Assembly: GCA_902774335.1 (NCBI GenBank)
Contig: CACYHW010000023.1
Coordinates: 1 to 38,603 of the forward strand
Reading direction: 5' to 3'
DNA: 38,603 nt
Origin: an uncultured Bacteroidales bacterium
Lineage (GTDB): Bacteria; Bacteroidota; Bacteroidia; Bacteroidales; Bacteroidaceae
A program made the translations under genes and the position numbers. Of this stretch, positions 7,087-24,428 are shown in pieces (position 1 is the stretch's first letter; each line of letters starts with the position of its first letter). The notes beneath the pieces were generated by a model. The model was given only the letters and a program-made list of their open reading frames with translations, did not search any database and was not told the DNA's origin.

Positions 7087-8109
7087 TTACTGCGGCAGGC
7101 TGTCGACGTATTCCTTGATGGCCAGAGCGGCAGCGCGGGCGTCGTTCACTGTGTCCCACACGCTCATGGGGCGCTTGCAGCTTCCGGCAGCAAAGAGGCC
7201 GGGCTTGCCGGTATCGTTGTCGTACAGGTGCGGGCTGACTGTGCGGATAAAGCCGTAGTCGCCGCTTATGTCGCAGGCTTTGCCCAGCGCCTTGGTACCG
7301 CACGATGCTTCCATGCCTACCATGAGTACCAGAAGGTCCGTAGTCATCTTGAGGGGCAGTCCCATAAGGGTGTCCTCGCTCTTGAGCTGGATGCGGCTGT
7401 CAAAGGTGGCGGCGGCCTCCGAGATGCGGCCGCGCACAAAACTTACGCCGTATTTCTCCTGAGCGGTGCGGTACATCTCCTCAAATCCCTGTCCCCACAT
7501 ACGCAGATCCATATAGAAGACCGATGCCTCGCACGCGGGTATCTGTTTCCTGACCTCGATGGCCTGCTTGACGGCTGTTACACAGCATATCTTGGAGCAG
7601 TAGTTGTTGCCGCTCTTCTCGTCACGGGAGCCTACGCACTGCAGGAATGTCACGCGCTTGGGCTCATCGCCGTTGGCGTTGAGTATCTTGCCGTGCTTGA
7701 TCATCTGCTCCATATCGAGCGAGGTGATGACTCCCTTGTAGATGCCGTAGCCCAGCTCCTCCTTGCGGTGGGCGTCAAAGACCTGATAGCCGGTGGCCAC
7801 GAGTACGGCATCGGCTACATAGGTCTGCTCCTTGGAGTCTATCAGCTTCCACTCGGTGCCCTGCCACTTGAGGTCGGTGATGTCTACGCCGAGTATGGTG
7901 GTGATGCCGTCGGTGAGCAGCTTGCCGCTCAGGTCATCGGCCACCTCCTGGGCTGCCTGGAAATTGGGGAACAGGAAGGCTTTGTCCTGTATGTTCTTGA
8001 GAGGTGACTCCGACTTCTCGAACAGAGTGACCTGAACTCCTTGTCTGGCCAGTACTGATGCGGCCTCTATACCGGCGGGGCCGGCTCCTATTATAGCGAC
8101 TTTTTTCAT
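7087..8109 (-). CDS. HdrA/QmoA-like FAD iron-sulfur oxidoreductase
   Basis: A flavoprotein of the HdrA/QmoA class, predicted to pass electrons among the Hdr-like subunits encoded just upstream. The ATG at 8109 (MKKVAIIGAGPAGIEAA) is preferred; the longer frame begins with TTG at 8115. The N-terminus is a Rossmann FAD site (GAGPAG). The HdrA signature LQCVGSRD is followed by NYCSKICC, giving Cys158, Cys171, Cys175 and Cys176, the ligands of the HdrA-type [4Fe-4S] cluster. At 340 aa it is shorter than methanogen HdrA (about 650) and has no ferredoxin insertion, nearer to QmoA. It ends the operon, 8 bases from the HdrB-like stop. The C-terminus keeps the second FAD contact region (PGLFAAGSCKRPMSVWDTV). 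Confidence 0.85.
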   Translation of the reverse strand: MKKVAIIGAGPAGIEAASVLARQGVQVTLFEKSESPLKNIQDKAFLFPNFQAAQEVADDLSGKLLTDGITTILGVDITDLKWQGTEWKLIDSKEQTYVADAVLVATGYQVFDAHRKEELGYGIYKGVITSLDMEQMIKHGKILNANGDEPKRVTFLQCVGSRDEKSGNNYCSKICCVTAVKQAIEVRKQIPACEASVFYMDLRMWGQGFEEMYRTAQEKYGVSFVRGRISEAAATFDSRIQLKSEDTLMGLPLKMTTDLLVLMVGMEASCGTKALGKACDISGDYGFIRTVSPHLYDNDTGKPGLFAAGSCKRPMSVWDTVNDARAAALAIKEYVDSLPQ

Positions 8110-8117
8110 ATTCAAAC

Positions 8118-9149
8118 TTAGACTAAAAGGTTCTCGGGCTTTTCCGGAGCACGCAGTATCTTGCCGTCGGCTGCTCTGTACTTGGCCTTGGGATCATACG
8201 GTATGCCTATCTTGTCAAGCAGGCGCTCAGCCTGTACCTGATGTATCTGAAGACCCAGTTCCCACGGGTCATAACCCAGCAGCAGGCCGGCCATTTCCTC
8301 ATAGGTGAGTACGGGTATGCCGTAGCCCTCGCGGTCGTAGGTCTTGTGCTCCATCTCGGCTATGGTGTACTGCCAGCGGTCCAGGAACATGGAGCAGCCG
8401 GGGCAGTTGGAGACAATGAAATCAGGCTCGTAAGGCTCCATGGACTCAAGTTTCTTCTTGGTGTTGGATACTGAGTAGCCGCGGTTCTCCTGAACCAGGT
8501 ACTGGCGGAATCCGAATCCGCAGCAGTGACGGCGCTCGGGATAATCCACAACCTCACCGCCCCAGGCCTCGATCATACCGGCCAGAACGTAGGGGAACTC
8601 TGCCTTACCCACGCCCTTATCGGGGAATATCTTGGCGTAGTGGCAGCCTATGTGCTCAACTACCTTAAGAGGACGGCCGGTAAAGCGGTTTACCAGACGG
8701 AATTTCATCTTCTGGGCCAGCTCATTGCGGAAATGATATATTACGTCCGATGGGTGGGCTATATTCTTGGGTATGTTGAACTCGCGTTTGCAGGCCTTGT
8801 AGAGGTTCTCGCGGGTCTTCTGCCACATGTGGCACATCTCGGTGAAGACGCCGAATGATGTTACGCATGAGGGCACGTAGTTCTCATAGCCGTGCTCGGT
8901 CATGAGTGAGAACAGACGGGCCACCACGGTCATGGTTGTCTCCAGAGGTACGACATCGGTATGGTAACCTATACCGGTGCAGGTGTGCTGACGGAAATCA
9001 TCAAAGATGTCCTTGTTCAACTCTTCACGGAGCATACGCAGGAATGCGGTCTCGGAGCCCGGGAAAAAGGTCTGGCGGATGCAGCTGCGCTCGTAGAAGA
9101 AATGGTCGTCAGCTATGGCTTTCTGATATTCATTCCAAAAACGGTTCAT
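8118..9149 (-). CDS. HdrB-like CCG-domain protein
   Basis: 343 aa related to heterodisulfide reductase subunit B, which in methanogens binds the two non-cubane clusters that reduce disulfides. The second CCG motif is intact: Cys169, Cys209-Cys210-Gly211 and Cys249-Pro-Gly-Cys252. The first is degenerate: Cys23 is present, but the CCG becomes CTG (Cys57-Thr58-Gly59) and the final CxxC keeps only Cys95. So perhaps only one catalytic cluster is assembled. No membrane segments are evident. The ATG at 9149 follows the HdrD-like gene by 7 bases. Alternative: an iron-sulfur subunit of a lactate/glycolate-type dehydrogenase, but the neighbours favour an Hdr-like complex. Confidence 0.82.
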   Translation of the reverse strand: MNRFWNEYQKAIADDHFFYERSCIRQTFFPGSETAFLRMLREELNKDIFDDFRQHTCTGIGYHTDVVPLETTMTVVARLFSLMTEHGYENYVPSCVTSFGVFTEMCHMWQKTRENLYKACKREFNIPKNIAHPSDVIYHFRNELAQKMKFRLVNRFTGRPLKVVEHIGCHYAKIFPDKGVGKAEFPYVLAGMIEAWGGEVVDYPERRHCCGFGFRQYLVQENRGYSVSNTKKKLESMEPYEPDFIVSNCPGCSMFLDRWQYTIAEMEHKTYDREGYGIPVLTYEEMAGLLLGYDPWELGLQIHQVQAERLLDKIGIPYDPKAKYRAADGKILRAPEKPENLLV

Positions 9150-9156
9150 AATCTTA

Positions 9157-11112
9157 TCAGTCTATTAGGTTCTCAGCCACAATCTCGGCTATATCCCTTA
9201 CGGGGTAGTCATTTGTGGCATGCTGGAACGCTTTCTTACACATTGGGCAGGCGGTGGCGATTGCGTCAACCGGCTTGTTTGTCAGGTTGGCAAGTGATGC
9301 GTTCCTTATCTTGGTCTGCTCCTCAATGCTGAGCTTTGTATCGCCCAGGTTGAATCCGCAGCACACACTCTTCTCTCTCTGGTAACGGGTCTTCTGCAGG
9401 TTGGTCACTGCGCTCAGAACCTGACGCGGCTCTTCATAGATTCCGCATCCGCGGCCCAGCTCGCAGGGATCGTGGTATGATACCTTACGGTCGTCATGAC
9501 GAACCTTTAACCGGCCCTGTTTGATGAGCATATCGATATACTCGGTATGGTGGACAACCGGAATGTTCAGGTTGTACTCCTTCTTGAATGACTGGTAGCA
9601 GATGGGGCAGGAGGTAACCAGCATGGTGGCTCCTGATTTCTCTAACAGGTCTGTGTTCTTCTGGCGCAGTTCAGCCGCCTGGTTGGTGAATCCCTGCTGC
9701 TGCAATGGCCTGCCGCAGCATATGGTACCCAGTTTATCCATGTACCAGTACTTCTGGCCGGCAGCGGTGAATATGCGCTCCATGGACTCGGTTATGCCGG
9801 GAGTGAGATGTGACATACATCCTCCAAAGTATGCTACTCGGCCTATGGCGTTGAACGGAGTCTGTTTCTTGTCCAGATATACGTAGTTGCCGGTGGTATC
9901 GATGGCACCCTTGGCGCGTGTCTGACGGCGCAGTGCGCTCAGGTCTATGCCAACTGGGCAATCTACCGTGCATCGGTCACACATAAGGCAGTTGTCGGCT
10001 ATCATCTTAAGGCGGCTGCCGCGCTCCTGATTGCGGATGCTGCGGATAAGATATACAGACTGTATCTCGTGATTTTCAAGCACACGGTCTATGGGGCAGC
10101 CCGATATGCAGACGCCGCAACGGGAGCAGGCGTTGAGTTCAAACAGTGTGTAGCCGGTCTTGCCGGTCTCCTCACGTACACCAATCTTACGGAAATATAT
10201 AAGGAGCAGTTCCGTGAAGATATGCATGTAACGGGTGAACGGCATGGTTACAAAGAACACTCCCAGCATAAGGGAGTAGAACATCCACAGTGATGTCTCC
10301 ATGCCGCGTACTATCATGGGATCGAACAGGTTGCCCACTGCCTGGGTAAAGAATCCGCCGTTGCCGTACAGGCAGGCTGTGACTGACTCAGCCAGCAGAC
10401 GCAGAGGGAATATCATCCAGAGTGAGAACTTGGAGAACCGGTCTATGATGGTGTGCTTGGTGGTGCGGCGCATTCCCAGTATCTTGGACCAGAATATCTT
10501 GATGATGGCCATGGTCAGGCCCAGGAATACATACAGAAGCAGAGCGTCCATCAGGTTGGAGTAGGCCTTGTGCTGACGGAACGATGCCGGTGCCTTGTGT
10601 ACAAAGTAACGGTAGAATATACCTACATAGAAGGGACGGTGATAGTGGATTCGGGCTATACCGTCCTCGGTCTCAACACGGTAACGGCGCTGGTTAAGAT
10701 ACTCGGGGTTCTTGTCCTGGCCTGTGTTGTAGATGTGCCAGCCGTTCTGCTGGCGGAGTTCATTGACGGCCTCAATCGACTGCTCATGCTGCATGGTGTA
10801 GAAAGCGTCGCGGCTCTCAATGGCACCCACTACAATAAGCAGGAACCAACCCAGGGCGTATGCCTGGTGCATGATACCCAGCAGCAGGTTCTTCTTGAGT
10901 ATGCGTACATGGAGCAATCCCTCACGTATCATCTCCCAGATGGCGGGGAATATCTTCCAGGAGTACCAGTTGCTGCGTATCACCTTACGCTGCTCGGGGC
11001 TGAATTTCTTTATCCAGCGTATGTATTTGTAGATAATGATGGCAAACAGCAGTATCGTACCTATCAGGAACGGTATCACAAAGTCATTATACGGATATGC
11101 ATGTATCTTCAT
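9157..11112 (-). CDS. Membrane-anchored HdrD/DsrMK-like iron-sulfur protein
   Basis: 651 aa. The N-terminal third has about five membrane segments (about 11-31, 77-98, 186-208, 228-248, 272-307), reminiscent of the NarI/DsrM-type haem or quinone module. It is followed by two [4Fe-4S] motifs (Cys329/332/335/339 and Cys375/378/381/385) and two intact CCG motifs (Cys432, Cys465-466, Cys502/505; and Cys550, Cys584-585, Cys622/625). This is the order expected for a fused DsrM+DsrK or HdrE+HdrD subunit that links a membrane quinone pool to a cytoplasmic disulfide or cluster site. Position between the HdrC-like and HdrB-like genes, with gaps under 10 bases, supports one complex. Confidence 0.85.
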   Translation of the reverse strand: MKIHAYPYNDFVIPFLIGTILLFAIIIYKYIRWIKKFSPEQRKVIRSNWYSWKIFPAIWEMIREGLLHVRILKKNLLLGIMHQAYALGWFLLIVVGAIESRDAFYTMQHEQSIEAVNELRQQNGWHIYNTGQDKNPEYLNQRRYRVETEDGIARIHYHRPFYVGIFYRYFVHKAPASFRQHKAYSNLMDALLLYVFLGLTMAIIKIFWSKILGMRRTTKHTIIDRFSKFSLWMIFPLRLLAESVTACLYGNGGFFTQAVGNLFDPMIVRGMETSLWMFYSLMLGVFFVTMPFTRYMHIFTELLLIYFRKIGVREETGKTGYTLFELNACSRCGVCISGCPIDRVLENHEIQSVYLIRSIRNQERGSRLKMIADNCLMCDRCTVDCPVGIDLSALRRQTRAKGAIDTTGNYVYLDKKQTPFNAIGRVAYFGGCMSHLTPGITESMERIFTAAGQKYWYMDKLGTICCGRPLQQQGFTNQAAELRQKNTDLLEKSGATMLVTSCPICYQSFKKEYNLNIPVVHHTEYIDMLIKQGRLKVRHDDRKVSYHDPCELGRGCGIYEEPRQVLSAVTNLQKTRYQREKSVCCGFNLGDTKLSIEEQTKIRNASLANLTNKPVDAIATACPMCKKAFQHATNDYPVRDIAEIVAENLID

Positions 11113-11118
11113 GGCGGT

Positions 11119-11454
11119 TTACTGTTTTGTCTCGTCAAGGATCTGACGCATATTGATAATGAGTGACCTTAGGTTTACCCCACGCGGGCAGACCAGTGTG
11201 CATTTGCCGCATAGCATACATTGCTTGAGTTGCTCATCCAGTCCCTCGTACTCACCGCGGCGGAATGATGTGTGCACACGGCGTATGCTGAAATCAGTGA
11301 ACTGGCGTGCCGAGCATGTGGCGCTGCAGCATCCGCACTGGAAACAGCGCTTGAACGATGGCTCGCGGTCCAGCAGCATGTGGTAACGCTCCAGCGATAC
11401 CTTGTCCATGTTCTCGGAACGCGGAGTCTTTATGGCGAATCCGAACTTATTCAT
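11119..11454 (-). CDS. HdrC-like dicluster ferredoxin (small)
   Basis: 111 aa with two [4Fe-4S] motifs: Cys37/40/43/47 in CFQCGCCSATC (an extra Cys42 is present) and Cys79/82/85/89 in CMLCGKCTLVCP. Between them, the DFSIRRVHTSFRRGEYEGL helix is typical of HdrC, which wires HdrA to HdrB. The start codon overlaps the end of the preceding 205-aa HdrC-like gene by 8 bases. It is one of two HdrC-like proteins in the same operon. Confidence 0.85.
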   Translation of the reverse strand: MNKFGFAIKTPRSENMDKVSLERYHMLLDREPSFKRCFQCGCCSATCSARQFTDFSIRRVHTSFRRGEYEGLDEQLKQCMLCGKCTLVCPRGVNLRSLIINMRQILDETKQ

Positions 11455-12064
11455 TGTGCGGGCCGTTTTTTATTGAATCATGGAAATCCATTCCTCCGGT
11501 TACGCGGAATATGTTGCGGAGTTCCTCCATTGTCTCAGGGTTGATAGTGCGCAGCGCACCGGCTCCCTCACCGTGGTAGTTGGCTCCGAATTTGGGCGAT
11601 ACGGCCTTGATATTCTTTACATACCACTCCCACACAGGTCCCTGCTCGGGGTGTTTCTCGGGGAATACCACATCGGGATGTACGCAGTAGCCTATGTTAA
11701 GGATGTTGTCACCTATGCCGGCCATCAGGTCAACCTGCTGCCGACCCATGTGGCTGTCCTTGTAGTAGCCCATATCCTGGGATACCTTGCGCAGTATGTT
11801 GATGACAGCACCGGGTACGTTGCCGCGCGGACAACGGGGCTTGCACGACATGCACTGTCCGCAGTACCAGATGGTGTCGGAGCGCAGGAGTTTTTCTACC
11901 TGCTCCTCGTCACCGCGCTGGACAGTGTCGCAGATGCGTCGCGGGTCATAGTCGTAGAACTCGGCAGCCGGGCAGATGGCGGTGCAGATACCGCAGTTCA
12001 TGCAGGCCTTGAGGGAGTCCTCGTATCGGACATCGGACTTGATTATATCAATTAGATTTCCCAT
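11447..12064 (-). CDS. HdrC-like dicluster ferredoxin with C-terminal extension
   Basis: 205 aa with motifs Cys21/24/27/31 (CMNCGICTAICP) and Cys68/71/74/78 (CGQCMSCKPRCP), separated by a DPRRICDTVQRG helix as in HdrC/QmoC N-termini. After residue 90 a 115-aa extension without cysteine clusters (only one Cys is visible) has no function I recognise; it may dock to the flavin or membrane subunit. It lies 27 bases after the VOC gene and overlaps the next ferredoxin. Confidence 0.83.
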   Translation of the reverse strand: MGNLIDIIKSDVRYEDSLKACMNCGICTAICPAAEFYDYDPRRICDTVQRGDEEQVEKLLRSDTIWYCGQCMSCKPRCPRGNVPGAVINILRKVSQDMGYYKDSHMGRQQVDLMAGIGDNILNIGYCVHPDVVFPEKHPEQGPVWEWYVKNIKAVSPKFGANYHGEGAGALRTINPETMEELRNIFRVTGGMDFHDSIKNGPHNE

Positions 12065-12091
12065 AAGCTAAGTGGTTGGTGCGGAGGGCAG

Positions 12092-13171
12092 TTATTTGTC
12101 GAACTTCTTGCGGTTCATCTTCATGGCACGGAACAGAAGCTTGGACAGGGGCTTGCAGCGGTCGCGCTTGACAAGACTGATATACCAGCCCAGTTTCTTG
12201 GCTACCGAAATACGGTAGGTCTCCACGAACTCGATCAGGGTGCCGTCGGGGTCCTCGATGTATGTGAAGCGGCCTGAGGCGTCGCCCATGTTGAAGACTT
12301 TGCCGTCGGGGCAGCTGTCGACGGTGAAGGGGTGGCCTTTCTGGGCGCAGAACTTGCCCAGGTTGTCCATTCCGGTTACGTCGAAGCAGATCTGGATAAA
12401 GCCGGGATCGCCCCAGTAGCGGCCTTCAAAGATCTTGCGGGGCTCGCGGTCGAGGCTCTGTACCAGCTCGATGTAGCCGGTGGGGAAGACGGGCGCGAAG
12501 GCTCCCTTGTTGGGCTTGGACCACTTGAGCAGCACGCGGCGGAACTTGCCGTTGCCGCCTTCCAGGGGCTTGAGGTCGTCAAAGGTGCCGGTCTCGTCAA
12601 AGACCACCTGGTCGTAGCCCAGGATATCGGAATAGACGGTGCGGGCCTTGTCGATATCGGTCACACCAACCATGCAGCCTATCATGCCGCCGAACTGCTT
12701 GCCTTCGTCAAGCAGCAGGTAGTCGTCCTGTACTGCCTGGAACCAGTTGCCCTGGGGGGCGGTTACGTAGAAGGTCTGTTTGCCGTCGGGGGCGGTGACG
12801 ATGGGGCTTACCTTGTCCCACTGTGCCGATATGTATTTGTAGGCGCTCTCCACGTTGCGGCACTTGACTTTGGCGCAGAAAATGCCCAGGTCGCCTGCCT
12901 GGATCTGGAAATCAACGGGTTTGGGCTTGCGCTCGGAGTACTGCCAGATCTCGAATCCGCCGCCACCCTGGAGGTTGATGGCGATTGCGGCGTGACGCTT
13001 GTGGGGCTGACCGCCGGTGTAGGGGAGCATGCGCTCGGCTACGGTGTCGTCCTCGAGAACGCGGATGTCGATTCCGAACATCTTGATGAACCACTTCCAT
13101 GAGTCATATACCGATGTTGTACCAACGCCAACCTGCTGGATTCCAGTTATGAAAAAGCTTTCGTTATTCAT
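12092..13171 (-). CDS. Two-domain VOC (glyoxalase-fold) protein heading the Hdr-like operon
   Basis: 359 aa with two VOC modules (about 5-150 and 160-325) and a basic C-terminal tail (MKMNRKKFDK). VOC proteins bind a metal through His/Gln/Glu residues on paired beta-strands; members include methylmalonyl-CoA epimerase and 4-hydroxyphenylpyruvate dioxygenase. Possible remaining ligands are Gln in ITGIQQVGVG, Glu in GFEIWQY, Glu in GYIELVQ and Glu in GTLIEFVET. Several usual His positions appear replaced (for example GFIQICFDV and GNWFQAVQ), so metal binding is uncertain. It is the first gene of the operon and presumably handles a substrate or cofactor of the Hdr-like complex; that link is inferred from context only. 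Confidence 0.8.
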   Translation of the reverse strand: MNNESFFITGIQQVGVGTTSVYDSWKWFIKMFGIDIRVLEDDTVAERMLPYTGGQPHKRHAAIAINLQGGGGFEIWQYSERKPKPVDFQIQAGDLGIFCAKVKCRNVESAYKYISAQWDKVSPIVTAPDGKQTFYVTAPQGNWFQAVQDDYLLLDEGKQFGGMIGCMVGVTDIDKARTVYSDILGYDQVVFDETGTFDDLKPLEGGNGKFRRVLLKWSKPNKGAFAPVFPTGYIELVQSLDREPRKIFEGRYWGDPGFIQICFDVTGMDNLGKFCAQKGHPFTVDSCPDGKVFNMGDASGRFTYIEDPDGTLIEFVETYRISVAKKLGWYISLVKRDRCKPLSKLLFRAMKMNRKKFDK

Positions 13172-14366: not shown

Positions 14367-14437
14367 AGGTGACAAAGGGGACGGTTCTGTTTGGCTCGAC
14401 TTGCGCGAGCCAAACAGAACCGTCCCCTTTGTCACCT
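14367..14437. repeat. REP-type palindrome A (32-bp perfect stem)
   Basis: An inverted repeat with left arm 14367-14398 (starts AGGTGACAAAGGGGACGG) and right arm 14406-14437, loop ACTTGCG. The arms are fully complementary. It lies between the convergent tatC and the 532-aa gene, so it may also end both transcripts. The unit GTGACAAAGGGGACGGTTC resembles the REP elements associated with REP-associated tyrosine transposases; no such transposase is in the window. A near-identical copy is at 16114-16184, and half-units are at 24364-24428. Confidence 0.9.
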
Positions 14438-14456: not shown

Positions 14457-16055
14457 TTATCTCTTCAAGGTTTTCTTGCCGTCGCGGATGTAGATTTCAC
14501 CGTCGCGCATATCGGCCTCATCAACCTTTACGCCCATCAGGTTGTAAATCTGACCGGGAGCAGCGTAGAGGAGTGACCTGACGCTGGCCTTGATGGTCTT
14601 ATACTTATCGTAGGTGATGTATGTAACGTCGATGTTGTGGGTGCTGGTGTTGTAGACTACTACGGGGACACCCTTCTCCTTCTCGGCGGTTACCTTGAAC
14701 TCGGCCTGTCCGTCGATGAGCTTTGCGGTGTTGGTGTGGTTGGTGTTCTCGTTGAAGGCACCGTAGGGTATGGCAACGCAGCCTGTGTAACCCAACTCCT
14801 CGGCCAATCCTGCTACGGGATACTCCAGATGGATTTCCGATGAATGAGTGTGGTACTCGTAGTATGAAACCTTTTTACGGGATGTTCCGTAAGGTGTGGT
14901 GTAGTTCTTGTACTTATACTTGGTCTCCTTGGTGGTGTAGCTGTAGAATGAACTCAATACCACCTGACCGTTTGTGCCCTGGCCGGGGTTGCCCTGACCC
15001 GGGTTGGTCTGTCCGGGATTGGTCTGTCCTGGGTCGGTCTGTCCGATGGTGGGAGTTTTGGGCTCATCATCAATGATCTCTGTGTATGACTGGGCAGGCA
15101 TGAGTGTGTCGTTGCCGATGATATCGAACTGGCCCAAGTCACAGCGCTGCGCGGTGAAGGTGAGCGGAGCGTTGTCCTTCTGGTTGTAGTACGAAAGGAA
15201 GAAGATGTAGACGCCGGCCTGAAGCTTGATGGTATCGCCCTTGGGATCGGTCTGATAGTCCCAAACCCACTCGGTTCCCTCTTCGGCATATCTGATCTGG
15301 GCATTGGTTTCGTCCAGAGTCTCGACTCCTGTCAGCTTGAGTGACCAGGGCTTGCCTTTATACATGAGTATGCAGGGACCGTCAATCTGATAGGGGTTCT
15401 CACTGAAGAACAGAGGTATGGAGTCGCACCACTCGGAGGGGTTCCTGGAGTCGTACAGGTATCTTGACAGAGGATCATTCTGTGCCTGCTGCCAATCGTA
15501 ATAACCTGTGTAAGGATCTACTCCGTTGAATGTACGTGCGTAACCCTGCAGGTAGAAATCGTGCCAGTCATAATGACCTAAGTAATTACGTAATTTGCTT
15601 GAGTACAGTATTTTGGTGGACGGGTCATATTTGAAGTATACAACCGATTCGCTGGCATACTGAATCTTTTCATAGTCGACGGCCTCCAGCTTGTATGTGT
15701 AAACATACGAAGGACCGTATTTGGCCAGCGATCCCTTGGGAACGGATGTGCTTTCAAAATCGGCCCAATCGGAATCGTATCCCCAGGTTCCGTTGTTGGA
15801 AGTTGTCCTGAAGTAACCGTTGTTACCGTCGGTGATGTAGTAATCTCCCAATACCTGGACAAAGCATCCTTTTTTGAGAGTCTCGGTGTCGATGTCGCCG
15901 GGAGTCCAGACATATTCCATTGCCTGTGACATGTCTGTGATGAGAGCCACCTGGCCTTTCAGCATTACTTTGTTGAAATTGGGGTTGGGATTAACCTGCG
16001 CCTGGCATATTATGCTTGCAGCAAGCGCGCACATAAGGGTAAGGACTTTTCTCAT
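14457..16055 (-). CDS. Secreted protein of unknown function with GQTNP-repeat linker
   Basis: 532 aa with a Sec signal peptide (ends IICQAQ, residue 20). Residues 21-330 are aromatic-rich and beta-like (EYVWTPGDID, WGYDSDWADF), with no motif I recognise. Residues 334-364 are a low-complexity linker of five-residue GQT(D/N)P units. Residues 365-490 form a second globular part. The last 35 residues (QIYNLMGVKVDEADMRDGEI ... RDGKKTLKR) match the short C-terminal tail common on Prevotella/Bacteroides secreted proteins. It has its own promoter at 16076-16106 and is bracketed by REP palindromes A and B. The function is not recognised. Confidence 0.8.
   Translation of the reverse strand: MRKVLTLMCALAASIICQAQVNPNPNFNKVMLKGQVALITDMSQAMEYVWTPGDIDTETLKKGCFVQVLGDYYITDGNNGYFRTTSNNGTWGYDSDWADFESTSVPKGSLAKYGPSYVYTYKLEAVDYEKIQYASESVVYFKYDPSTKILYSSKLRNYLGHYDWHDFYLQGYARTFNGVDPYTGYYDWQQAQNDPLSRYLYDSRNPSEWCDSIPLFFSENPYQIDGPCILMYKGKPWSLKLTGVETLDETNAQIRYAEEGTEWVWDYQTDPKGDTIKLQAGVYIFFLSYYNQKDNAPLTFTAQRCDLGQFDIIGNDTLMPAQSYTEIIDDEPKTPTIGQTDPGQTNPGQTNPGQGNPGQGTNGQVVLSSFYSYTTKETKYKYKNYTTPYGTSRKKVSYYEYHTHSSEIHLEYPVAGLAEELGYTGCVAIPYGAFNENTNHTNTAKLIDGQAEFKVTAEKEKGVPVVVYNTSTHNIDVTYITYDKYKTIKASVRSLLYAAPGQIYNLMGVKVDEADMRDGEIYIRDGKKTLKR
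14964..15056 (-). repeat. In-frame 15-bp tandem repeats coding for the GQTNP linker
   Basis: Imperfect 15-base units encode GQTDP, GQTNP, GQTNP, GQGNP and GQGTN in the 532-aa secreted protein. Such coding repeats can change copy number by slippage without shifting the frame. Confidence 0.65.
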
Positions 16056-16113: not shown

Positions 16114-16184
16114 AGGTGACAAAGGGGACGGTTCCGTTTGGCTCGACTTGCGCGAGCCAAACAGAACCGTCCCCTTTGTCATCT
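16114..16184. repeat. REP-type palindrome B
   Basis: A 71-nt inverted repeat nearly identical to element A (16114-16145 with 16153-16184, loop ACTTGCG). It has one C-A mismatch (left arm has TTCCG where A has TTCTG) and G-T wobbles near the base of the stem. It begins 15 bases after the end of the carboxyltransferase gene in transcript direction, so it may end that operon. Confidence 0.9.
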
Positions 16185-16199
16185 TGGCTGGTGAACCGA

Positions 16200-17981
16200 T
16201 TATTTCTCGATCCAGCCGATAACTTCGCCCTTGGTGACGAGTGAACCGTGCTCTTTCTCGATTCCGGCGATATGGCAGTCGTAGGGTGCTACGGCGTTGT
16301 CGATGAAGGTGTTGCCGTTGGCCTGGACGCCACACATCCAGTCACCCTTCTTATACTGCTTGCCGAAGGGCGGGTTGGTGGACTGGTCAACGTAGTCGAG
16401 ATCCCAGATCACGCGGCCGCTGACAGCTGCCTCGATGGGCTCGGCATCCGGATGCAGGATGGCACGCTTATCGGCTGCGGTGAAGTGCTTTACGGGTGCA
16501 CCTGCGGTGCCTGCCTGAGCCTTCTCCATACGCTCCATAAGATCCTTGTTGAACTGATCCTTGGCCTGGCCGGATTTGTACTCGCGGTACTGCTTCTCGT
16601 GCATTGCGAACTCGAACAGCTCCTCGTCGTCCTGACCGCGGTCCCAGCCGTTCTCCTCCATCTCCTTGATGAAGCGGGGCAGATCGTTGGGGTAGAGCAC
16701 CTGAGGATCATCGGTATAGAACTCCTTACCCTGCTCCTTGGCCAGCTGGATGATCTCGGGAGCGAGCTCGCCGGGCAGCTTACCTGACTTGCCGAGTACC
16801 ATACCCCACATTGCGGGATCCATACGGGTAAAGGGCTTCTCGTCCATGGACTTGCTGTACAGGTTCATAAGGGCGGCGTTCTTTACGTACTGGCTGAACG
16901 GTGTAACCAGACAGGGTGTTCCCAGCATAGGCCATATGCGCTGTACCTCGTCAAAGAGCTCAACAAGCAGCTCGTCCTCGGAGAGCTCCTTCTGACCCTT
17001 TTTGCGCAGGTTGGCGTTGATGGCGGCGTGCATACCCTTGAGGTCGGCCATGAGTGATCCCATCATACCGCCGGGAAGGCCGCAACCTACCAGCAGTGAA
17101 CTCATCAGTGAGTTCTTGGGGTCGATCCAGTAGCCCAGGAAGTCGTCCATAAAGCTCTGGGTAAGGCTGCGAGCCTCCATGTAAGCCTTCATGTTGATAT
17201 CCTTTACCAGGAATCCGGCATCCTTAAGCATAGCCTGAATGGTTATGACATCGGGATGAACCTTACCCCATGACAGGGGCTCCATGGCTACGTCCAGAAC
17301 GTCACCGCCGGCCTTGGCAACCTCAAGCATGGAGGCTACTGCAAAACCGGGGCCGTTGTGGCCGTGGTACTGTATGATGATATCGGGATGTTTCTCCTTG
17401 ATGGCGCGGACTATTGTGCCCAGCATTGCAGGACGGCCGATGCCAGCCATATCCTTAAGGCAGATCTCCTGTGCGCCGCCCTCGATGAGCTGCTCGGCCA
17501 GGTTGATGTAGTACTCGGCGGTGTGTACCTTAGAATAGGTGATACACATGGTTGCCTGAGCGGTCATGCCAGCCTCCTTGGCCCACTTGATTGAGGGGAT
17601 GATGTTACGCGGATCGTTAAGTCCGCAGAATATACGTGTGATGTCTACGCCCTGAGCGTGCTTTACCTTGTACATGAGTTGACGTACATCGGCCGGAACA
17701 GGGTTCATACGCAATGCGTTCAGACCACGGTCAAGCATGTGGGTCTTGATGCCAACCTCGTTGAAAGGCTTGGTGAATGTACGGACTGCCTGGTTGGGGT
17801 TCTCTCCGTAAAGGAGGTTGACCTGCTCCATGGCACCGCCGTTGGTCTCAACGCGGTCAAAGCAGCCCATATCGATAATTACCGGAGCAATTTTGGCCAG
17901 CTGGTCCTTACGTGGTACATACTTGCCTGATGACTGCCACATGTCACGGTAAACAAGACTGAATTGGATCTCTTTTTTCAT
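16200..17981 (-). CDS. Carboxyltransferase of the pyruvate carboxylase B / oxaloacetate decarboxylase alpha family
   Basis: 593 aa. The N-terminal TIM barrel has the family signature YRDMWQSSGK with metal-binding Asp13, the carboxylated-lysine region ICLKDMAG with Lys176, and the His-x-His pair in QYHGHNGPG (His206, His208). The middle is the conserved PycB-type alpha domain (GLPGGMMGSL, LVTPFSQYVKNAA). The C-terminal 80 residues look like a biotin/lipoyl domain, but the place where EAMKM with the biotinyl lysine belongs reads VQANGN (552-557), so no modified lysine is seen. It may work with a separate biotin carrier. It starts 21 bases after the SDR gene and appears co-transcribed with the lipid genes. 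Role: transfer of CO2 between oxaloacetate/pyruvate and biotin. Confidence 0.85.
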   Translation of the reverse strand: MKKEIQFSLVYRDMWQSSGKYVPRKDQLAKIAPVIIDMGCFDRVETNGGAMEQVNLLYGENPNQAVRTFTKPFNEVGIKTHMLDRGLNALRMNPVPADVRQLMYKVKHAQGVDITRIFCGLNDPRNIIPSIKWAKEAGMTAQATMCITYSKVHTAEYYINLAEQLIEGGAQEICLKDMAGIGRPAMLGTIVRAIKEKHPDIIIQYHGHNGPGFAVASMLEVAKAGGDVLDVAMEPLSWGKVHPDVITIQAMLKDAGFLVKDINMKAYMEARSLTQSFMDDFLGYWIDPKNSLMSSLLVGCGLPGGMMGSLMADLKGMHAAINANLRKKGQKELSEDELLVELFDEVQRIWPMLGTPCLVTPFSQYVKNAALMNLYSKSMDEKPFTRMDPAMWGMVLGKSGKLPGELAPEIIQLAKEQGKEFYTDDPQVLYPNDLPRFIKEMEENGWDRGQDDEELFEFAMHEKQYREYKSGQAKDQFNKDLMERMEKAQAGTAGAPVKHFTAADKRAILHPDAEPIEAAVSGRVIWDLDYVDQSTNPPFGKQYKKGDWMCGVQANGNTFIDNAVAPYDCHIAGIEKEHGSLVTKGEVIGWIEK

Positions 17982-18002
17982 AGTTCTATGTGTTTTTGTT
18001 AT

Positions 18003-18803
18003 TTACATCGGATTAATGGAACGGGCTATCTTGGCGCAGAGTCCGGGGAAGAAACGCTTGATGTAGACCATCAGGAGTTCCTTTCGGCCCACAAGGACCT
18101 CACGCTTTTTACGGTACACGGCCTTGACGATCTTGCGGGCAGCCTGCTCGGGGGTGCAACCTCCGGCCTGACCGGCATCCATCTTGGCGTGCTGCTTTCC
18201 GTCTTTTTCAAGTGCGTAGAATGATATGCGGGTCTGTACGCGGCCGGGGCATACTATGGTTACGCGGATGTTATCCTTGTAGTACTCGGCCTGGACGGTC
18301 TCAAAGAATCCGTACAGGGCGTGCTTGGATGAACTGTAGGCGCAACGCAGCGGGAATCCGAACCTTCCGTTGATGCTGGTGGTGACCATCAGCTGGCCGC
18401 CGCCGTTCTCTATCATCTTGGGCAGGATCACCTTGGTCATGATTACCGGAGCGAACCAGTTTATGTCCATGACCTTGTTGATGACACGCATCTCGGTCTC
18501 ACAGGTGGTTCCGCGCTGGCTTATGCCGGCGTTGTTGTAGAACACGTCTATGTGTCCAAAAACCAGCCATGCCTGCTCGGCCAACTCTGCGACCTCATCC
18601 TTGCGGGAGAGATCGAAGGGTAGGGGCTTGGCATCGGGAGCACCCAACTCCTTGCAGCGGGCGGCTACCATTTCCAGAAGGTCGGCCTCAAGTGCAGTGA
18701 GAATGAGCTTTGCGCCTTCACGTGCAAACTCATATGCGGTTGCCTCACCTATGCCCGATGACGAACCTGTTATCCAGACTACCTTATCCTTGAACTTGTT
18801 CAT
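18003..18803 (-). CDS. Short-chain dehydrogenase/reductase, candidate 3-ketocapnine reductase
   Basis: 266 aa classical SDR: the NAD(P) loop TGSSSGIG at 12-19, NNAG at 90-93, catalytic Ser143, Tyr156 and Lys160 (YSSSK). The C-terminus is hydrophobic and basic (LLMVYIKRFFPGLCAKIARS), suggesting membrane association as in lipid ketoreductases such as KDSR/DHRS7-type enzymes. It overlaps the cysteate synthase-like gene by 4 bases, which follows the acyltransferase. In sulfonolipid synthesis, condensation of an acyl donor with cysteate gives 3-ketocapnine, and an SDR reduces it to capnine. That function is inferred from family and operon. Confidence 0.8.
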   Translation of the reverse strand: MNKFKDKVVWITGSSSGIGEATAYEFAREGAKLILTALEADLLEMVAARCKELGAPDAKPLPFDLSRKDEVAELAEQAWLVFGHIDVFYNNAGISQRGTTCETEMRVINKVMDINWFAPVIMTKVILPKMIENGGGQLMVTTSINGRFGFPLRCAYSSSKHALYGFFETVQAEYYKDNIRVTIVCPGRVQTRISFYALEKDGKQHAKMDAGQAGGCTPEQAARKIVKAVYRKKREVLVGRKELLMVYIKRFFPGLCAKIARSINPM

Positions 18804-20023
18804 TTGCAGTTGTCTATAGCTTCTTTAAACCAGAGAGCTCGATTGCAGCCCTCGCCGGTGTTGAGCAGAACCAGATCGCCGCTCTTGAGCTTGTTCTCCT
18901 CAAGTGCCTTGAAGAATCCGGCTATACATACTACCGATGCAGGTCCCATATAAACGCCTGTTGCGTCCTTGACCATACGGCCGTAACGCTCCAGACCCTC
19001 TTCCTTGACGCGCAGGAAACAACCTCCGCTGTTCTTGACGATGGGGCCTACCAGCGGGTACATACCCGGGGTGCCGGCTGTAAGGATGGAAATCTTAGTC
19101 TGCGGTACCACAGTGGGGAAGTGCTTGTTCCAGCCCTGCGGGAATCCGTTCTCGGTTGCCCATTCCCAAGCTTGGACCATGGGGTCACATGTGTCCTGCT
19201 GAACCAGCAGCATGCGCGGCATCTTATACTCGGGATAAGCATCGGCTATCTCACGCATTCCTTTCTCGAATGCAATGGGACTGGTGCCTCCGGCTACTGC
19301 CTGCATGTATACATCGGGGATTCGGCCCAGTTGGCGCATGCACTCAAAGACAAGGGTCTTCTTGGCTTCTACGCGGATGGGGTCGATGTTTCCGGCCGAT
19401 ATCATTACGCTGTGGTTCTTATGGAAATCAGCAGCCTCAGCCTTGGCCTGACCGTAACCGCCCTCAGAAACCTGAAGGTTCTGACCGGTGGCGCGGATGG
19501 CCTGCTGGGTCTCCTGGTACATATCGTGCGGAGCGAATACGTCAAACTTGACACCTGCCTTGGCCAGATAAGTGGCATAGGCGGTGGCCGCATTACCTGT
19601 CGATGCCAGGCAATACTCCTTGACTCCGTGTTTCTTGAACAGCGTGGCTGCCAGTGAAGCGGCAATGTCCTTGAAGGTACCGGAACCGCCGTTCAGGTCG
19701 TTGCGGGCAACCACAACCTTGCAGTCTATTCCGTAACGGTCTTTTGCATATCGGCTCAGGAACTCCCACTCCTCGATGGGTACTGCGCCCTCACCGTAAC
19801 TTACCTGCTCATCGGCCCCTTCTATGGGGAGGAAGGGCAGGTAGTGGTAGAGGTTGCTTACCTTATGGCCGGGCTTGCAGAGCTCATCCAGCTGACGGTA
19901 ATCGGCATCATAAACCACTTCTGCGTGGTTGCTTCCGCACTCACACAGCTGGTCCTGACTGAACCAGGTGGCAAAATCTCCAATTACCTTGCCACACTTC
20001 TTGCAGACAAGCTTGTAGGCCAT
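18800..20023 (-). CDS. Cysteate synthase-like PLP enzyme (threonine synthase family)
   Basis: 407 aa fold-type II PLP enzyme. An N-terminal zinc-ribbon-like region (Cys7/Cys10, Cys27/Cys29) precedes the catalytic domain. The PLP lysine is Lys118 in GGSGTFKDIAA, and the phosphate loop is STGNAATAYA (141-150). The family includes threonine synthase and the archaeal cysteate synthase, which makes L-cysteate from O-phosphoserine and sulfite. Context decides: it lies between a serine-palmitoyltransferase-like enzyme and a lipid-type SDR with one-base and four-base overlaps, where a threonine synthase has no obvious reason to be. Alternative: a true threonine synthase. A bifunctional role cannot be excluded. 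Confidence 0.78.
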   Translation of the reverse strand: MAYKLVCKKCGKVIGDFATWFSQDQLCECGSNHAEVVYDADYRQLDELCKPGHKVSNLYHYLPFLPIEGADEQVSYGEGAVPIEEWEFLSRYAKDRYGIDCKVVVARNDLNGGSGTFKDIAASLAATLFKKHGVKEYCLASTGNAATAYATYLAKAGVKFDVFAPHDMYQETQQAIRATGQNLQVSEGGYGQAKAEAADFHKNHSVMISAGNIDPIRVEAKKTLVFECMRQLGRIPDVYMQAVAGGTSPIAFEKGMREIADAYPEYKMPRMLLVQQDTCDPMVQAWEWATENGFPQGWNKHFPTVVPQTKISILTAGTPGMYPLVGPIVKNSGGCFLRVKEEGLERYGRMVKDATGVYMGPASVVCIAGFFKALEENKLKSGDLVLLNTGEGCNRALWFKEAIDNCK

Positions 20024-21297
20024 TATCTCTTTATTTGAGCACGCTTGAATACGTTCATATCCTGAATGGCACCCTCGTAGAAGCCGGCGTCGAGTTTCTT
20101 CTTGACATCCTTGAAGACCTCGATGGTGCGCTTAACATGATCCAGAGTGTGTGATGCGGTCGGGATGATACGCAGCATCAGCTGGCCCTTGGGGATAACG
20201 GGATATGTAACGATTGAGCAGAATATTCCGTAGTTCTCACGCAGGTCAACAACTACGTTGGTACCCTCGTTGATACCACCCTCAAAGAATACGGGTGTTA
20301 CAGGTGACTCGGTTACGCCGATGTTGAAGCCCTCGGCCTTGAGTCCGCCCTGCAGAGCGTTTACAACCTCCCACAGATGCTCGCGGTACTCGGGGTGAGC
20401 CTTGATCAGGTCCAGACGCTTCTGGTTACCGATAACCAGAGGCAGAGGCAGTGACTTGGCGTAGATCTGTGAACGCATGTTGCACTTCAGATGGTCAATG
20501 ATCTCAGGCTCTGAGCTTACTACACCGCCGATTGATGCCATACTCTTGGCAAATGCATCGAATATTACATCGATCTCGTCGATTACGCCGTAGTGCTCGG
20601 CGGTACCGCGACCGTGTGCACCCATTGTACCGAAACCGTGTGCATCGTCAATAAGTATGCGGAACGGATATTTCTTCTTGAACTCTACGATGTCAGCAAG
20701 GTGACCCAGGTCACCGGCCATGCCGAATACACCCTCGGTGATTACCAGAACGCCGCCGCCCTGCTCATCGGCCAGCTTGCAGGCGTGGTTGAGCTGCTTC
20801 TCAAGGCTCTCCATGTTGTTGTGCTGGAAAGCAAAGCGCTTGGCAAGACTCAGACGCATACCGTCCAGGATGCAGGCGTGTGACTCAGAATCGTAAACGA
20901 TAACGTCTTTACGGCTGGTCAGTACGTCGATGATTGAGATCATGCCCTGGTAGCCGAAGTTCAGGCAGAGACCTGCCTTCTTGCCTACGAACTCTGAGAA
21001 ATCGTTCTCGAATTTGATGTGATAATCAGTATTACCGGACATCATGCGGGCGCCCATAGGAGCACCGAGACCGAACTTGGCGGCTGCCTCGGCATCGGCC
21101 TTTCTTACCTCGGGATGGTTGGCCAGACCCAGGTAGTTGTTAAGGCTCCAGTTGAGTACGGGCTTGCCGTTGAACTCCATTTCGGGACCGATTTCACCTA
21201 CCAGGCGAGGGAACATAAAGTAACCGTCACCAATTCCCTGATACTGACCGAGAGGACCCGGTGTCTCTTTGATTCTTTCAAAAATGTCTTTAATCAT
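20023..21297 (-). CDS. sulA: Alpha-oxoamine synthase, candidate cysteate fatty-acyltransferase (SulA/capnine synthase type)
   Basis: 424 aa from the ATG at 21297; the longer frame starts with TTG at 21309. It is a fold-type I PLP enzyme of the serine palmitoyltransferase/KBL family: the PLP-stacking His140 in SESHAC, Asp217 and His220 in DDAHGFGT, and PLP Lys251 in FAKSMAS. The N-terminus (LGQYQ ... YFMFPRLVGEI) resembles, as I remember it, the Flavobacterium cysteate acyltransferase more than Bacteroides serine palmitoyltransferase. It should condense a fatty-acyl thioester with cysteate, releasing CO2, to give 3-ketocapnine. Its stop overlaps the ATG of the cysteate synthase-like gene by one base (TAATG). 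Alternative: serine palmitoyltransferase for sphingolipids. Confidence 0.8.
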   Translation of the reverse strand: MIKDIFERIKETPGPLGQYQGIGDGYFMFPRLVGEIGPEMEFNGKPVLNWSLNNYLGLANHPEVRKADAEAAAKFGLGAPMGARMMSGNTDYHIKFENDFSEFVGKKAGLCLNFGYQGMISIIDVLTSRKDVIVYDSESHACILDGMRLSLAKRFAFQHNNMESLEKQLNHACKLADEQGGGVLVITEGVFGMAGDLGHLADIVEFKKKYPFRILIDDAHGFGTMGAHGRGTAEHYGVIDEIDVIFDAFAKSMASIGGVVSSEPEIIDHLKCNMRSQIYAKSLPLPLVIGNQKRLDLIKAHPEYREHLWEVVNALQGGLKAEGFNIGVTESPVTPVFFEGGINEGTNVVVDLRENYGIFCSIVTYPVIPKGQLMLRIIPTASHTLDHVKRTIEVFKDVKKKLDAGFYEGAIQDMNVFKRAQIKR

Positions 21298-21454
21298 ACT
21301 GAAAATCAATTATTTTGTTTGTTATTATTTTCTTGTTTGGGTTGCGCTTTGAAAATGGTACGCTTAAACTGCGCGAAAATACTAAAAATATGGGCAATGC
21401 TATTATAAAATAAGTTATAATTCTGCTCTATTATAATTATAGTGACTTGCTTAC

Positions 21455-21506
21455 GCGGGACTAAGGGTTTAGGGGAGACGACGCTCCCCTAAACCCTTAG
21501 TCCCGC
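21455..21506. repeat. 23-bp perfect palindrome of unknown role
   Basis: Left arm 21455-21477 (starts GCGGGACTAAGGGTTTAGG), loop ACGACG, right arm 21484-21506, fully complementary. It is in the 289-bp gap between the LRR gene and the acyltransferase operon and has no T-tract on either side, so it is not an obvious terminator. Its sequence is unrelated to the GTGAC-type REP elements here. Confidence 0.8.
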
Positions 21507-24363: not shown

Positions 24364-24428
24364 GTGAGCCAAACGGAACCGTCCCCTTTGTCATCAGTGA
24401 GCCAAACGGAACCGTCCCCTTTGTCACT
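24364..24428. repeat. Two direct REP half-units (site C)
   Basis: Two head-to-tail copies (24364-24396 and 24397-24428, period 33) of GTGAGCCAAACGGAACCG followed by TCCCCTTTGTCA, the right-arm sequence of REP elements A and B. Unlike those, there is no paired left arm. The TCA at 24424-24426 in copy 2 is the complement of the TGA stop of the EamA transporter gene, so the repeat supplies that stop codon. Confidence 0.88.

Follow-up and report, generated by a model that had tools for sequence, protein, structure and literature searches.

A probable sulfonolipid gene trio with a putative third lineage of cysteate synthase and VOC–Hdr-like companions in an uncultured Bacteroidales bacterium

The capnine pathway CapA/CapB/CapC has been described for Capnocytophaga ochracea and Ornithobacterium rhinotracheale by Liu et al. 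2022 (PMC10191378, PMC12927429), and a review assigns a cysteate synthase other than CapA to Alistipes and Odoribacter (PMC10191378). In Alistipes finegoldii the condensing enzyme, SulA, is active with cysteate and inactive with serine, and Lys281 is the residue that tells SulA from serine palmitoyltransferase (SPT), which has Ala at this position (PMC9304779). Several ketocapnine reductases have been validated in A. finegoldii and C. gleum, encoded by genes described as unclustered with cfat and Cys, and a part of sulfonolipids from human-associated Bacteroidota in modulating inflammation is under discussion (PMC11211663). The source of the sulfite and the last steps of sulfonolipid synthesis are poorly known. 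The subject of this study is a stretch of 38,603 nucleotides (the window) on contig C23 of a 2.35-Mb, 87% complete assembly of an uncultured Bacteroidales bacterium. It most likely carries a locus for sulfonolipid biosynthesis, composed of a trio of genes for a putative cysteate synthase (CysS), SulA and a short-chain dehydrogenase/reductase (SDR), a wider locus with a vicinal-oxygen-chelate (VOC) protein and heterodisulfide reductase (Hdr)-like proteins, and a resident neighbour resembling PycB.

Organization and conservation of the locus

The genes in question are all encoded on the minus strand.

20023–21297, minus: SulA, a cysteate acyl-acyl carrier protein (ACP) transferase (3-ketocapnine synthase) by bit scores and Lys251/Lys281; 424 aa, ATG at 21297
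18800–20023, minus: CysS, a pyridoxal phosphate (PLP) enzyme of threonine-synthase fold, 407 aa; putative cysteate synthase of a third lineage, from profile scores, context and displacement by CapA2
18003–18803, minus: SDR, putative 3-ketocapnine reductase, 266 aa; PF00106 at 170 bits, and motifs
16200–17981, minus: PycB-like carboxyltransferase, 593 aa, a transcarboxylase 5S relative with a biotinyl-type C-terminal domain lacking the biotin lysine; probably a co-transcribed neighbour
12092–13171, minus: two-domain VOC protein, a conserved companion of sulfonolipid genes
11447–12064, minus: HdrC1-like 4Fe-4S protein; NF041779 at 90 bits (cut-off 350), PF13183
11119–11454, minus: HdrC2-like 4Fe-4S protein; NF041779 at 43.5 bits (cut-off 350)
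9157–11112, minus: HdrD/HdrB-like protein, 651 aa, with two CCG domains and 4Fe-4S; PF02754 in two stretches, PF13183
8118–9149, minus: HdrB-like protein; NF041780 at 140 bits (cut-off 450), PF02754
7087–8115, minus: short HdrA-like flavoprotein; HdrA2 model at 224 bits over a partial profile (cut-off 1100), PF07992

The activities predicted for the trio, those of a cysteate synthase, a cysteate acyltransferase and a ketocapnine reductase, are those of CapA/CapB/CapC. CysS would convert O-phospho-L-serine and sulfite to L-cysteate, SulA would condense cysteate with acyl-ACP to 3-ketocapnine with loss of CO2, and the SDR would reduce 3-ketocapnine to capnine. An N-acyltransferase, for which no gene was found in the cluster, would complete a sulfobacin-type lipid. 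The VOC–Hdr operon is part of the wider locus, in which the VOC protein accompanies the reductase and the Hdr-like complex accompanies the SulA/cysteate synthase side.

The SulA and CysS genes overlap by 1 base and the CysS and SDR genes by 4 bases, and PycB follows the SDR gene after a gap of 21 bases, as had been claimed in the original prediction made from the DNA alone; the three genes that it called fused overlap or adjoin, with no fusion, and are presumably co-transcribed. An in-frame TTG at 21309 offers SulA an alternative start that would add 4 aa. The order of genes in the window is DUF3078, EamA, two more genes, the trio, PycB, a gene for a 532-aa protein, TatC/TatA and VOC. The original prediction overlooked the VOC–Hdr operon (7087–13171), which lies approximately 3 kb beyond PycB, comprises VOC, two HdrC-like proteins, the 651-aa Fe-S/CCG protein, HdrB and the short HdrA, and has homologues adjoining sulfonolipid genes in several families.

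Related loci were collected with CysS as the anchor, keeping the best 80 of 195 relatives, so that the sample is thin for distant members, and a locus does not always stand for a separate genome (L233 and L234, for example, come from one isolate). Genes were placed by tblastn and simple ORF calling, gaps were measured without the stop codon, and a partner is given as absent from a neighbourhood if the thresholds used yielded none inside the stretch fetched. In 27 near loci (L174–L200; PLP enzyme identity of at least 74%), SulA stands directly upstream of CysS (within 400 bp) in 26, both SulA and SDR accompany CysS in 24, and PycB is present in 25. The repetition of these companions across the near loci shows that the arrangement is not due to chance. 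Of the near loci, 17 of 26 keep the spacing that corresponds to the 1-base overlap, and 18 of 24 that of the 4-base overlap.

In 35 of the 53 more distant loci, at least two of which (L208 and L217) belong to congeners, the SulA gene is no more than 400 bp upstream of CysS, and the full trio is found in 23. An SDR homologue within 400 bp downstream of CysS is present in 24/27 near and 29/53 more distant loci, so the trio, although more compact than the arrangement given for A. finegoldii and C. gleum (PMC11211663), is not unique to this genome. The reading as a capnine operon of SulA, cysteate synthase and ketoreductase is thus borne out, and the order SulA–CysS–SDR is kept; the clustering is not a novelty of this genome, and PycB, the fourth gene of the predicted order, is not conserved with it in the more distant loci. 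Such a compact three-gene capnine route could be used for heterologous tests. Many records of the related loci name ruminant stomach compartments, or deer or horse faeces.

The condensing enzyme SulA

The family assignment of SulA by sequence comparison is secure. The protein scores 608 bits to SulA of A. finegoldii (7u7h; PMC9304779) and 543 bits to a cysteate-C-fatty acyltransferase (28eh), against 252 bits to SPT (3a2b). It shares with the A. finegoldii enzyme the PLP lysine, Lys251, and the SulA-specific Lys281, both of which are present in 80/80 aligned SulA rows, the window included, whereas the SPT encoded elsewhere in the same genome has Ala at position 281. In a midpoint-rooted tree this SPT falls outside all 79 SulA rows; by score and by tree, the window protein groups with SulA and not with SPT, as predicted.

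The own-genome SPT (contig C2, L085:6975–8162), which adjoins a lipid-kinase-like gene, reaches 685 bits on the curated SPT model and passes its cut-off of 640, far above the 310 bits of SulA. It is very improbable that the trio builds a sphingoid base from serine, for a sphingolipid: SulA and SPT do belong to one alpha-oxoamine synthase superfamily, and SPT models are among the best NCBIfam matches of SulA, but Lys281, the gap between the SulA and SPT scores, the failure on the SPT model and the separate, above-cut-off SPT of the same genome all speak for SulA. Sphingolipids and sulfonolipids may, according to a review, be mutually exclusive classes (PMC10191378); a genome that encodes both condensing enzymes, SPT and SulA, is a counter-case to this suggestion.

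The SulA proteins of five congeners (G017, G025, G028, G030 and G034) form part of a separate clade of the SulA tree, so exchange or replacement of sulfonolipid genes has taken place inside the genus.

CysS, a candidate cysteate synthase of a third class

CysS is very probably a cysteate synthase of a third kind, where ‘third’ means apart from the TIGR03844 type of methanogens and Alistipes CapA2 and from the threonine synthase models, CapA standing outside the comparison. The original prediction had compared it with the cysteate synthase of methanogens, but it scores 111.9 bits on TIGR03844 (cut-off 324.9). On the threonine synthase models PRK08197 (155.7 bits; cut-off 303) and TIGR00260 (56.6 bits; cut-off 167.1) it also fails, so that it stays under the curated cut-offs on both sides of the proposed comparison. 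A 265-residue fragment of A. finegoldii CapA2 (9k3c) passes TIGR03844 with 334.3 bits, and since CysS does not, it is not of the TIGR03844/CapA2 type. CysS and CapA2 share the Pfam PALP family, some motifs and, in congeners, the same kind of operon; their identity in a structural alignment is 21%. A housekeeping threonine synthase was likewise set aside, given the separate ThrC elsewhere in the genome, which scores 304 bits on TIGR00260.

Three lines point to cysteate synthesis by CysS: its position beside SulA, its displacement by CapA2-type enzymes, and its neighbours among sulfite-forming genes. The displacement is seen in congeners G017, G025, G028 and G034, which have no CysS match at E 1e-30 and carry an operon of SulA-SDR-HdrC1-HdrB-HdrA-HdrC2-HdrD followed by a cysteate synthase. 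The enzyme of G034 scores 418 bits on TIGR03844 and 482 bits to 9k3c, with 55% identity to the CapA2 fragment; those of G017, G025 and G028 are 78–93% identical to it. CysS homologues of 39–44% identity lie with sulfate-activation and adenosine 5'-phosphosulfate/3'-phosphoadenosine 5'-phosphosulfate (APS/PAPS)-reductase genes (G136, G193, G097, G298 and G058) or with part of this set (G046, G052 and G174), and in G298 a divergently oriented SulA belongs to the same CysS/sulfate-reduction cluster. Loci L349, L359, L361 and L363, from two Bacteroidales families, have a compact operon that would lead from sulfate to cysteate, VOC-CysH-CysD-CysN-anion transporter-CysQ-CysS, with SulA in divergent orientation.

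A number of observations weigh against a sulfonolipid locus with CysS as its cysteate synthase. CysS scores higher on PRK08197 (156 bits) than on TIGR03844 (112 bits), and a structure search with its AlphaFold model, which is of moderate confidence (pLDDT 72.6), is headed by threonine synthases, CapA2 taking rank 34. These two results would suit an additional threonine synthase or some other beta-replacement enzyme, with cysteate coming from elsewhere. We consider this unlikely, because both curated cut-offs are missed, a true ThrC is encoded elsewhere, the motifs GRIPDxYxQAV..GT..IA and PM..AW are common to CysS and A. finegoldii CapA2 and absent from Mycobacterium tuberculosis ThrC, CapA2 replaces CysS beside SulA and Hdr in four congeners, and CysS homologues adjoin CysH/D/N. 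The motifs are not strictly kept: in G034 the CapA2-type enzyme is without PM..AW, and the CysS homologue of G046 deviates from GRIPDxYxQAV..GT..IA. Distribution adds further difficulties. G003 and G019 are without CysS and no replacement was seen in them, G013 has CysS as a fragment at a contig end only, G030 pairs CysS with the other SulA type, and G058 has CysS and VOC with no SulA at threshold.

At the level of the locus, a scan of 26 SulA loci outside the genus, which leaves out G347, a stretch without SulA, detected no partner in the neighbourhood at its thresholds in 25 (G044 has an SDR at 35% identity), so sulfonolipid clusters are one of several arrangements. The closeness of the VOC–Hdr operon to the trio within the genus could in part be an inherited position, since VOC stays beside TatC/PycB in G017, G028 and G034, where the trio is absent. 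No lipidome of the genus was found, and the lipid product is a prediction. With these points counted, synthesis of cysteate by CysS for a sulfonolipid is still the reading that we prefer.

The reductase and the VOC protein

The SDR is of the classical type, its sequence showing Ser-Tyr-Lys and TGxxxGIG motifs, and would act as the ketocapnine reductase; in distant families its homologue directly adjoins the VOC gene. The VOC protein has a confidently predicted structure (pLDDT 93.6) with the VOC fold, and its structural neighbours are of glyoxalase and dioxygenase type, including glyoxalase I. It has no solved sequence relative at E ≤ 1 and no NCBIfam match at E 1e-8. Conserved residues are Q12/Q13, E74, H or Q at 260, and E314, a set that presumably resembles the ligands of glyoxalase-type enzymes, with no reaction claimed. 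A dioxygenase was considered and set aside in view of these fold neighbours, dioxygenases and glyoxalase I alike, and of the conserved residues.

Of 393 Bacteroidales genomes of at least 85% completeness, 286 carry SulA and 144 carry VOC. The two occur together in 135, VOC alone in 9, SulA alone in 151 and neither in 98, an odds ratio for co-occurrence of 9.7 with relatedness ignored. Two batches of 20 VOC loci were compared. The first consisted of best or diverse matches and included two genomes without SulA. An SDR homologue lies within approximately 160 bp of VOC in 13 of them (upstream on the same strand in 11, divergent in 2); among the rest, SulA is divergent within 150 bp in 2, Hdr alone is present in 4, and 1 has none of these. 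The second batch was partly picked for nearness to SulA or for known family, so the counts over all 40 loci are not those of a random sample: Hdr accompanies VOC in 7, CysH stands directly behind VOC in 8, both occur in one stretch in 0, and 5 are without Hdr, CysH or SDR. In the more distant CysS loci, VOC follows SDR within 700 bp in 9/53 and precedes SulA within 300 bp in 9/53.

The pairing of VOC with the reductase suggests that the protein acts near the ketocapnine step. A conserved N-acyltransferase beside the SDR–VOC pair was considered and discarded, because no family besides VOC, SDR, Hdr-type genes and SulA recurs in more than 3 of the 20 loci whose genes were clustered, the remaining genes being unannotated. 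VOC and Hdr are conserved, uncharacterised companions of the sulfonolipid genes and may be missing parts of the pathway.

The Hdr-like operon and a possible supply of sulfite

Part of the VOC–Hdr operon falls inside the fetched stretch in 21 of the 27 near loci; in the other 6, the contig ends within approximately 1 kb of the last mapped gene. Outside these loci, genome G077 carries SulA-CysS-HdrC1-HdrB-HdrA-HdrC2-HdrD-SDR-VOC on one strand, and G140 carries SulA-CysS-HdrC1-HdrB-HdrA-HdrC2-HdrD. By sequence comparison, four families covered by the search (f1, f42, f80 and f104) combine Hdr genes with SulA and a cysteate synthase, and the Hdr genes come in two divergent forms. The second form, type B, is that of G017, G025, G028 and G034; its genes are 34–62% identical to those of the window (HdrB approximately 60%). 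In G017, G028 and G034, no Hdr of the window type was found in approximately 12 kb beyond VOC. The type B operons are in loci L082 (G034), L076 (G017), L081 (G028) and L073 (G025).

The closest described counterpart is the sHdr complex, which serves the cytoplasmic oxidation of sulfane sulfur to sulfite, has the gene order C1-B1-A-hyp-C2-B2 and is described as associated in all cases with a lipoate-binding protein, LbpA (PMC6067878, PMC11582611). As in the sHdr–LbpA systems of Hyphomicrobium denitrificans and others, there are two HdrC-, two HdrB/D- and one HdrA-type genes. The sHdr order is resembled by C1-B-A-C2-D in G077, G140 and the type B operons (G017, G025, G028 and G034), whereas the order in the window, C1-C2-D-B-A, differs. 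The set also differs from sHdr in its D-type subunit, of 651 aa, which has hydrophobic stretches in its N-terminal part (hydropathy windows), and in its linkage to lipid genes. A crude motif, used with no positive control and with no genome-wide search, revealed no LbpA-like lipoyl small ORF in the window or in 14 loci. An identification of the operon as a true sHdr was set aside on account of this result and of the gene order in the window.

By analogy, and as a bold hypothesis, the Hdr-like complex may supply sulfite for cysteate synthesis. It is also quite possible that the complex and VOC carry out lipid redox chemistry or isomerisation (for example, desaturation or deoxygenation) or general electron transfer, and do not make sulfite. 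The hydrophobic N-terminal windows of the 651-aa subunit would suit such a role, as would the fact that in many genomes VOC is paired with the ketoreductase and not with CysS, and the lack of an LbpA-like protein in the scan just described. It is opposed by the Hdr genes that adjoin cysteate synthases of two lineages and by the sulfite-making CysH/D/N genes that adjoin CysS homologues in other families. A broader, tentative proposal retains sulfite supply by the Hdr-like complex. Gut and rumen Bacteroidales might possess a modular supercluster, with a core of SulA, a cysteate synthase from any one of two or more lineages, the ketoreductase and the new VOC enzyme, and an exchangeable sulfite module, in some families an assimilatory one of CysH-CysD-CysN/anion transporter/CysQ and in others, as in the window, the Hdr-like set, which would oxidise reduced sulfur to sulfite. 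If true, this would be an anabolic use of chemistry known from dissimilatory sulfur oxidisers. In the open-access literature, no paper was found with both sulfonolipid and heterodisulfide, and none among those listed that reports such clusters by its title or the start of its abstract; the novelty is limited accordingly.

The PycB-like gene

The best solved relative of the PycB-like protein is the transcarboxylase 5S subunit. As in transcarboxylase 5S and OadA, its carboxyltransferase domain retains the motifs RDxxQ, KD and HxH; unlike them, it is without the biotin attachment motif (no AMKM/(A/S)MK in the C-terminal domain, which holds too for the other biotin-less members seen) and without an adjacent OadB gene in the window. 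It fails the oadA equivalog model (191.4 bits; cut-off 756.5). A biotin-dependent OadA was rejected on the grounds of the missing motif and OadB. Of six aligned relatives that have the biotin motif, five are followed by an OadB-like gene (G001, G019, G040, G054 and the second copy of G059), and the sixth, G048, is a longer protein with no OadB-like gene after it.

PycB stands close behind CysS/SDR in 25/27 near loci and in 0/53 others (counted up to 1.5 kb downstream of CysS, same strand). In G017, G028 and G034 it occupies the order DUF3078-EamA-PycB-(variable)-TatC-VOC, where the trio is absent. The original prediction left it between oxaloacetate/pyruvate supply and a passenger role. Its absence from the distant loci, its trio-free position in three congeners and the lost biotin lysine favour the latter, and PycB is probably a resident gene of the lineage, transcribed behind the trio, and not an enzyme of the pathway. 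For PycB to function in capnine synthesis, supplying or removing oxaloacetate or pyruvate, is improbable. The gap of approximately 20–30 bases after SDR is repeated in the genus, and PycB comes straight after CysS in G014 and G032, which have no SDR there, and in G030. Beyond the comparative positions given above, however, Bacteroidales without a SulA match (G038, G055 and G059) also have PycB, and the enzyme has no link to sulfite or phosphoserine chemistry.

All 12 congeners with a biotin-less PycB that were examined, the own genome included (contig C20, L170:4942–5673), encode a tandem two-biotin carrier, with two ESMKME sites, in a methylmalonyl-CoA decarboxylase locus. One carrier site is present in G001, in which the PycB biotin motif was seen, and in G003, G027 and G035, which were judged by a partial match or OadB copies only; five outgroups with a biotin-less PycB have a single carrier biotin site. 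Loss of biotin from PycB and the tandem carrier may represent one evolutionary event, and a transcarboxylase with a shared carrier is a possible reading of the biotin-less PycB. In G037 (L157/L173), PycB-VOC-HdrC lies beside genes that resemble, by eye, lysine-fermentation enzymes, with SulA-CysS on another contig.

Repeats and flanking sequences

Two inverted repeats flank the four genes.

21455–21506: perfect 23-nt inverted repeat upstream of SulA, a possible transcription-unit boundary
16114–16184: 32-nt inverted repeat behind PycB, a weak indication of a terminator

The upstream repeat has a match in only 2 of 397 fetched loci, both of them this site itself. The repeat GGGGACGGTTCYGTTTGG occurs as inverted pairs at 14377–14427 and 16124–16174 and as a direct pair at 24369–24419, and is found in 9/397 fetched loci, including another place of the own genome, with 0 expected from the shuffled window. 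A plain terminator behind PycB was set aside for this reason, and because its arms recur elsewhere the hairpin marks the end of the unit only weakly. The 532-aa protein encoded between PycB and TatC (14457–16055) contains PGQTNPGQ-type repeats and has no Pfam match at E 0.001.

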